Origin: a virus
Reading direction: 5' to 3' (one strand)
Virus record (IMG/VR): IMGVR_UViG_3300030098_001199
Location: 1,503-21,671 of that record
Length of the DNA: 20,169 bases
Shown here: positions 19,657 through 20,169 of the stretch, one piece after another
How the letters are laid out: each line of letters opens with the position of its first letter
Numbering within the stretch: position 1 is the stretch's first letter
Notes under the pieces: model-generated
Databases searched by the model: none
Seen by the model: only the letters and a program-made list of their open reading frames with translations
Told to the model about the DNA's origin: nothing
Position numbers and translations under genes: made by a program

Positions 19657-19923
19657 ATGGCAAATTACACAGTTACTCTGACAGACACAGAAACAAAGTC
19701 TCTTGAATATGCAGCAACAAGTAATCAAGATTGGATTGATAATGCTGTAAAAGAACGAGCAAGAATAGCTAAAGATGAAATCATTTCTCTTAACACAGCT
19801 CATTGCAATAAAAAAGGAGTGGCTATTGCAGTTGGTGAAGATGCTCAAGTTACACAGGCTTATACGCTTGGTGTAGTTAAATCAGCAGCAGATAGGAATA
19901 AGGAAGCTGATAAATCTTCCTAA
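19657..19923 (+). CDS. Conserved small phage protein of unknown function, 88 aa
   Basis: The 88-residue product begins MANYTVTLTDTETKSLEYAA. It continues with WIDNAVKERARIAKDEIISL and THCNKKGVAIAVGEDAQVTQ, and ends ADKSS. I recognise the general pattern (ANYTVTLTD, then W--NAV--RAR-AK-EII, then HCN, then AVGEDAQV) from small proteins near the tail genes of marine phages; no activity is known. It appears soluble, with a short beta strand followed by two helices. It is separated from the C1q-type fibre by 33 bases, with no obvious ribosome-binding site before the ATG. Its end overlaps a proline-rich frame in the +1 register, which lacks its own standard start codon, so the two may be coupled or even fused by frameshifting. 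Confidence 0.82.
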   Translation: MANYTVTLTDTETKSLEYAATSNQDWIDNAVKERARIAKDEIISLNTAHCNKKGVAIAVGEDAQVTQAYTLGVVKSAADRNKEADKSS

Positions 19924-20169
19924 GCCTGATCTCCCTAAGCCCATAGACCTGCCTAGAATCGAGCTGAAGCCCCCTTCAGCCCTTATACCATCATATCGCC
20001 CCATGGTACTCCCTCCAGCTGATCTAGAGGCTCCTGAAGACGTTAAAGAAGAAACAAAGGAAACAACAGAACAACCTACTGCACCAAGTGTAAAGATACC
20101 TGTAATTGATATACAGATGCCTTTACCCACTGCAGAGGTTGTTACAACTGCTACATATGCTGCTGTTGC
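19907..20169 (+). CDS. Proline-rich protein, non-canonical start or frameshift product (partial, runs off window)
   Basis: The frame is open from 19877 to the window end and encodes NLPKPDLPKPIDLPRIELKP near its start, then PSYRPMVLPPADLEAPEDV. A Lys/Glu/Thr-rich stretch follows, then KIPVIDIQMPLPTAEVVTTA, entering a small hydrophobic region at the edge. The strong proline periodicity shows it is coding. No ATG, GTG or TTG occurs in frame before an ATG at 20003, which would cut off the proline-rich part. Candidate starts are CTG 19907 or ATA 19910; an AAGGA at 19900-19904 is well spaced for ATA. Alternatively, a +1 shift at the TCC-TAA end of the 88-aa ORF (19918-19923) would fuse the two. 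The visible part resembles proline-rich proteins with a C-terminal membrane segment that I associate with marine phages; the function is unknown. Confidence 0.65.
   Translation, partial: MINLPKPDLPKPIDLPRIELKPPSALIPSYRPMVLPPADLEAPEDVKEETKETTEQPTAPSVKIPVIDIQMPLPTAEVVTTATYAAV

Follow-up and report, generated by a model that had tools for sequence, protein, structure and literature searches.

One small, proline-rich gene of marine cyanobacterial viruses seems to occur repeatedly without a normal start codon, beginning instead at CUG, AUA or AUU near the stop codon of the preceding gene. Compared at the level of DNA, the startless forms have no canonical start (ATG, GTG or TTG), are under coding constraint, recur behind several upstream genes, carry a near-cognate codon at or near the homologous start position and have, on average, a stronger Shine-Dalgarno match. 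From these features we infer initiation with fMet at the near-cognate codon, coupling to the upstream gene and low output. We consider it likely that the gene is translated as an independent cistron by near-cognate initiation, in the window described below at CUG 19907, with AUA 19910 as second choice, and at AUU or AUA in other members of the family. It is probably coupled to the gene upstream.

A proline-rich gene without a canonical start

The window, the whole stretch of DNA that we analysed, is 20,169 bases long and reaches to the end of a virus record of 21,671 bases. The proline-rich gene (19907–20169; all window features given here lie on the plus strand) is therefore cut off at 20169. 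The fragment matched the PHROG_9426 profile (E=1.9e-28, profile positions 9–92 of 136) and could be aligned with full-length relatives. PHROG_9426 is a family with no assigned function, and its gene adjoins tail-fibre genes in Prochlorococcus podoviruses. Two of these viruses, P-GSP1 and P-SSP7, ranked highest in a phage collection when compared with the capsid protein of the window (63.5% and 63.9% identity, respectively). In P-SSP7, the homologue PSSP7_042 lies 3′ of the tail-fibre gene and has one annotated transmembrane region; the gene downstream of it has two, and the downstream protein of another relative (L007) matches DUF6450 (E=8.3e-33). From their position, one might guess that the proline-rich gene and its downstream neighbour are lysis genes. 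We recognised no publication on the PHROG_9426 gene or its start in the open-licence literature, which is no proof of its being unpublished. One PHROG_9426-type cyanophage gene lies in a sequence titled as an Actinomycetota MAG (L469, PBPX01000046.1), probably a misbinned phage contig.

Upstream of the gene lies an 88-aa ORF (19657–19923) that starts with ATG and ends TCT TCC TAA (19915–19923). The proline-rich frame is +1 relative to this ORF. It is bounded upstream by a TAG at 19874–19876, is open from 19877 to the end of the record and begins TTA AAT CAG CAG CAG ATA GGA ATA AGG AAG CTG ATA AAT CTT CCT, with the CCT at 19919–19921. Reading the window directly, we found no ATG, GTG or TTG in this frame between the TAG and the ATG at 20003–20005, the first in-frame ATG, which corresponds to an internal Met of the PHROG_9426 family and not to its start. 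An earlier, sequence-only reading of this locus had described a gene without any of the three usual start codons, an AAGGA beside CTG 19907 and ATA 19910, and a preceding ORF whose final TCT-TCC-TAA is overlapped by CCT. The letters of the window bear out all of this, and two other contigs, L002 and L178, share its startless arrangement.

Our preferred candidate start is the CTG at 19907–19909, which lies 9 nt downstream of an AGGA (19894–19897). L002 and L178 both carry CTG at −108, counted from a PP[SA]D-like motif that served as the common anchor for junction positions, and many relatives carry ATG or TTG there. The alternative candidate is the ATA at 19910–19912, 5 nt downstream of the Shine-Dalgarno-like AAGGA (19900–19904); L178 also has ATA and L002 has GTA. 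Shine-Dalgarno duplex energies were −4.2 for the CTG and −5.1 for the ATA. The window has one codon fewer after CTG 19907 than L002 and L178, and its CTG is one codon off the start position of relatives. The two candidates lie 14 and 11 nt, respectively, before the stop of the 88-aa ORF, and the candidate start in L002 and L178 lies 17 nt before the upstream stop. Both the AAGGA-like bases and the CTG of this class also encode part of the upstream protein (NKEA), so selection for their use as a start is not required. Positions 19901–19921 of the window could also form a 6-bp stem, AGGAAG/CTTCCT, with CTG-ATA in the loop, which would mask the Shine-Dalgarno-like bases; judged by eye, this stem is weaker in L002 and gone in L178.

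Start codons across the family

Relatives were collected with the 88-aa protein (at least 80 contig loci), with four proline-rich queries (lists of up to 80 loci for each) and further with P-SSP7's own proline-rich protein (at least 80 loci). The 403 matching loci yielded 252 distinct junctions after removal of 143 duplicates, 4 loci without the anchor and 4 near contig ends. Among the matches listed, 225 of the 252 had a canonical start at or before −93, the most proximal being ATG in 127, GTG in 73 and TTG in 25. The other 27 had none, a proportion that is enriched and is no natural frequency, because four of the queries were themselves startless and one was P-SSP7. (An earlier count on a smaller set of loci gave 22 of 184.) Each of the 27 startless junctions carries ATA, ATT or CTG at −108, −105, −102 or −99, the same positions at which most canonical starts of the set fall.

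Neighbouring genes served as controls. Canonical starts were present in 231 of 235 distinct downstream DUF6450 genes (389 matches, 3 dropped); of the four without one before the reference position, three have a Met in their printed frames and one (L388) has none. In an earlier version of the control, which excluded 44 of 307 matches for want of an anchor, all 153 distinct genes had a canonical start. All 67 distinct relatives of the upstream 88-aa gene have a canonical ATG. In L388, which is P-SSP3 (HQ332137.1), the DUF6450-type gene has no in-frame canonical start before its conserved block, which could reflect an indel or an unusual start.

The genes upstream of the junction are diverse. Clustering of upstream ORFs (blastp, E 1e-5, half coverage) gave 52 clusters in the 245 junctions with an upstream ORF of at least 45 codons, which suggests that upstream (tail) genes have been exchanged at the junction, in the window at about 19900–19930. 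Eight of these clusters contain startless junctions, and in five of the eight other members are followed by canonical starts. A tree of the 252 proteins (120 columns) was poorly resolved; on it, the startless state would take 15 changes, with gains and losses pooled, and at least six of these changes were forced by well-supported branches. Among isolate records the 88-aa query matched only three, fewer than the proline-rich queries did. A scan of genome contigs for the proline-rich gene gave two loci. Scanning for the junction pattern picked up three stretches, two of them on the contigs of L002 and L178 and the third in an unrelated sequence.

P-SSP7 itself has ATA at the homologous start position, where P-GSP1 has GTG and P-SSP3 has ATG. 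The annotated start of PSSP7_042 is a TTG at 37739, two codons 3′ of this ATA, and it is because of such a TTG that P-SSP7 and one other junction (L418) were scored as canonical. In the P-SSP7 genome (NC_006882.2 37733–37741; L386 1201–1209), the ATA overlaps the tail-fibre stop as ATAG. Among the matches listed, 69 distinct segments were of the P-SSP7 type, and the codon at the position of its ATA was GTG in 26, ATG in 18, ATA in 13 and another codon in 12. Among the 13 ATA segments, an in-frame GTG lies six codons upstream in four, and a TTG lies two codons upstream in two and two codons downstream in two (P-SSP7 and L418).

Eight classes of startless junction

The startless junctions fall into eight classes. 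The first (a) comprises the window, L002 and L178, with CTG and upstream ends TCTTCCTAA, TCTTCCTAA and TCTATCTAA, respectively. The largest, class (b) or the ATT class, has ATT at −99 in 13 junctions from 21 contigs, and its upstream genes end AAGTATTAA or AAATATTAA. Class (c), the SKL class (L111 and L271), belongs to the same upstream cluster but ends CTATAA, with an offset of −1 instead of +1; despite this change, both junctions retain ATA at −99, where the other junctions of that upstream gene have ATT. L127 (d) has ATT at −99 behind a different upstream gene. L146 (e) has ATA at −102, where L155 and L327 have TTG; no upstream ORF was called on this contig, which is short there, and the TCATAA overlap was read by eye. 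Class (f) consists of five junctions (L394, L414, L421, L425 and L430) with GCAGCATAG and, at −102, P-SSP7's ATA; their first canonical codon comes only at codon index 31 to 104. Finally, L173 (g) has CTG ATT directly after TAA, and L345 (h) has CTG ATT with the ATT overlapping TGA.

In most of these classes the near-cognate codon overlaps the upstream stop or lies at most 5 nt away; in the window class it lies 11–17 nt before the stop. A motif-defined subfamily (n=26) illustrates how the codon at −99 varies, being ATT in 14, ATA in 2 and GTG in 4, with the other 6 starting elsewhere. In six of the eight classes the near-cognate codon sits exactly at the start of close canonical relatives (binomial 1.5e-5 against a near-cognate background of 0.092 per codon), in a tally for which nearest relatives were assigned by hand and in which classes (b) and (c) share one upstream cluster. 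In L173, L345 and the window it is not exactly at that position.

Shine-Dalgarno context and the last upstream codon

We scored Shine-Dalgarno strength as the best duplex with ACCUCCUUU placed 4–12 nt before the start. Near-cognate classes (8) exceeded canonical clusters (120) in duplex strength (one-sided p=0.007), and TTG starts had stronger duplexes than ATG starts (p=0.005). GTG starts were off this trend, with a cluster median of −0.65 compared with −1.02 for ATG, i.e. not stronger. By the same scoring no match was found at L146 or L178, that of L127 was weak, and many ATT-class duplexes, at about −3.7, are no outliers among random positions (mean −1.89, 10th percentile −4.55). A study of bacterial genes reports compensation in the same direction for GUG and UUG starts, and finds 2 CUG and 1 AUU among 61,358 ancestral AUG starts (PMC5622118).

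All 13 junctions of the ATT class have TAT as the final codon upstream, and TAC at this place would abolish the ATT. Elsewhere in these upstream ORFs Tyr is encoded by TAC 17 times and by TAT 6 times. The eight codons before the TAT include seven that are invariant in amino acid, and all seven vary synonymously. Among the 56 other distinct members of the upstream family that end in Tyr, 18 end in TAC (one-sided Fisher 0.012, relatedness not corrected). The constancy of TAT gives a hint that the near-cognate start may be a selected low-output device.

Initiation or frameshifting at the junction

The sequence-only reading had proposed either rare initiation or a +1 frameshift. The presence of near-cognate codons at or close to the start positions of relatives speaks for initiation, and a programmed frameshift now appears rather improbable. 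In antizyme-type +1 frameshifting, a UCC precedes a stop; here, a P-site UCC would slip at the UAA, fusing the 88-aa protein to the membrane protein. The window and L002 resemble such a site in having TCT-TCC-TAA, with UCC directly 5′ of the stop and an open +1 frame, and +1 is the commonest offset in startless junctions (18 of the 26 with a called upstream ORF). However, alignment of the junction in relatives showed that TCC-TAA is not kept: L178, from the window's own junction class, has ATC-TAA, other classes differ, and the startless junctions do not share any one codon-stop site. Offsets vary as well, being −1 in 7 of the 26 and 0 in one, and +1 is also frequent overall (108 of 245 junctions, with −1 in 110 and 0 in 27). 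TCC-TAA itself is accounted for by the proline-rich gene, whose CCT-AAG encodes Pro-Lys; L084, whose upstream gene differs and whose start position holds TTG, carries TCTTCCTAA too. RNA folding of window positions 19880–19990 with a pseudoknot-free model gave a z of −1.09, which is not notably above the stability of shuffled sequences.

Probable translation ahead of the internal ATG

If the gene instead began at ATG 20003, which is internal but the first canonical start in frame, the preceding stretch would be untranslated; the NATL1A-7 homologue is in fact annotated at its internal ATG. We compared nonsynonymous and synonymous divergence from −93 to the internal Met, using pooled pairs of related sequences and no significance test. 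In the proline-rich frame pN/pS was 0.29 in the ATT class, 0.42 in the SKL class and 0.31 in the window class; in the other frames of these three startless groups it was 1.19 or more where defined. The 27 codons 5′ of the internal Met are thus under purifying selection in all three, and relatives with ordinary starts encode this stretch too, both of which make a start at the internal ATG very unlikely. From this coding constraint, translation seems to enter the proline-rich frame upstream of the internal ATG.

Synonymous divergence itself (pS) differed along the gene in one class: from −93 to −12 and from −12 to +40 relative to the anchor it was 0.295 vs 0.569 in the ATT class and 0.441 vs 0.421 in the window class. 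The lower value in the early codons of the ATT class possibly reflects further constraint or DNA exchange. In NATL1A-7 (GU071102.1, L167 1438–1546), CYIG_00061 is annotated from the internal ATG at 1546, and an in-frame GTG lies at 1438, 36 codons 5′ of it, at the start position of relatives.

Ordinary starts in relatives had been named beforehand as a sign of sequencing or assembly error in the window, and they are indeed found in 225 of the 252 (among the matches listed), with the gene sitting at the record end; but this is a weak argument for error, as independent contigs repeat the startless form. L002 and L178 share the window's junction class, the ATT class spans 13 distinct junctions from 21 contigs, and purifying selection acts on the proline-rich frame, which is intact. 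Sequencing error at the window junction is accordingly unlikely, and error or gene decay in the window has very little probability.

Discussion

Near-cognate initiation of an independent cistron, the reading we prefer, could proceed in two ways. Ribosomes on the upstream gene may reach the junction, terminate near the near-cognate codon and re-initiate there; the overlap or closeness of that codon to the upstream stop in most classes suggests such re-initiation. Alternatively, a ribosome may load beside the near-cognate codon on the Shine-Dalgarno match, which would partly offset the weak codon. In the window, where the candidates lie 14 and 11 nt before the stop, coupling would require the ribosome to move back or to load separately. 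Against near-cognate initiation stands the TTG that P-SSP7 and L418 offer two codons downstream. The startless state itself probably arises because exchange of upstream genes at the junction replaces the bases that hold the start.

It is possible, though doubtful, that the near-cognate codons are a selected low-output device that keeps the dose of a membrane protein beside presumed lysis genes low and tied to whichever tail gene lies upstream. The membrane protein would then come only from re-initiation, at AUA, AUU or CUG, by ribosomes leaving the upstream tail gene.

Near-cognate starts have known cellular counterparts. The infC gene, encoding IF3, has an AUU start codon through which IF3 autoregulates its synthesis. 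The ATT-class junctions resemble it in using AUU as a putative start codon, but infC is an autoregulated cellular gene, whereas the phage family would represent repeated loss of a canonical start. For CUG, the main doubt is its low activity: figures quoted in PMC11497404 put its output in E. coli, where it is a very poor start, at 0.86% of that of AUG, and its share of bacterial starts at 0.024%. According to PMC5472188, sigR of Streptomyces has a GTC start, is translationally coupled to rsrA and is repressed by IF3. This bacterial gene of a coupled pair, like the putative phage case, starts outside ATG, GTG and TTG, but sigR is a cellular regulator with a proven GTC start, whereas PHROG_9426 is a phage family with putative AUU, AUA or CUG starts. 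PMC2268962 describes re-initiation at sites that overlap a stop or lie near one, and deals with IF3's effect on starts outside the canonical set. Most startless classes resemble such termination-reinitiation sites in the overlap or closeness of stop and start (UAUUAA, CUAUAA and AUAG); in the systems described there, however, the start is usually AUG, and the window's candidate lies 11–14 nt before the stop, with putative coupling.

These results have a practical side, as gene callers can shorten or overlook the proline-rich gene. P-SSP7 is a reference isolate and has the AUA form, which makes near-cognate initiation testable in a laboratory phage-host pair. If our reading is true, a phage family that repeatedly reaches AUU, AUA or CUG would provide a natural series on the trade-offs among the start codon, the strength of the Shine-Dalgarno match and the distance between stop and start.
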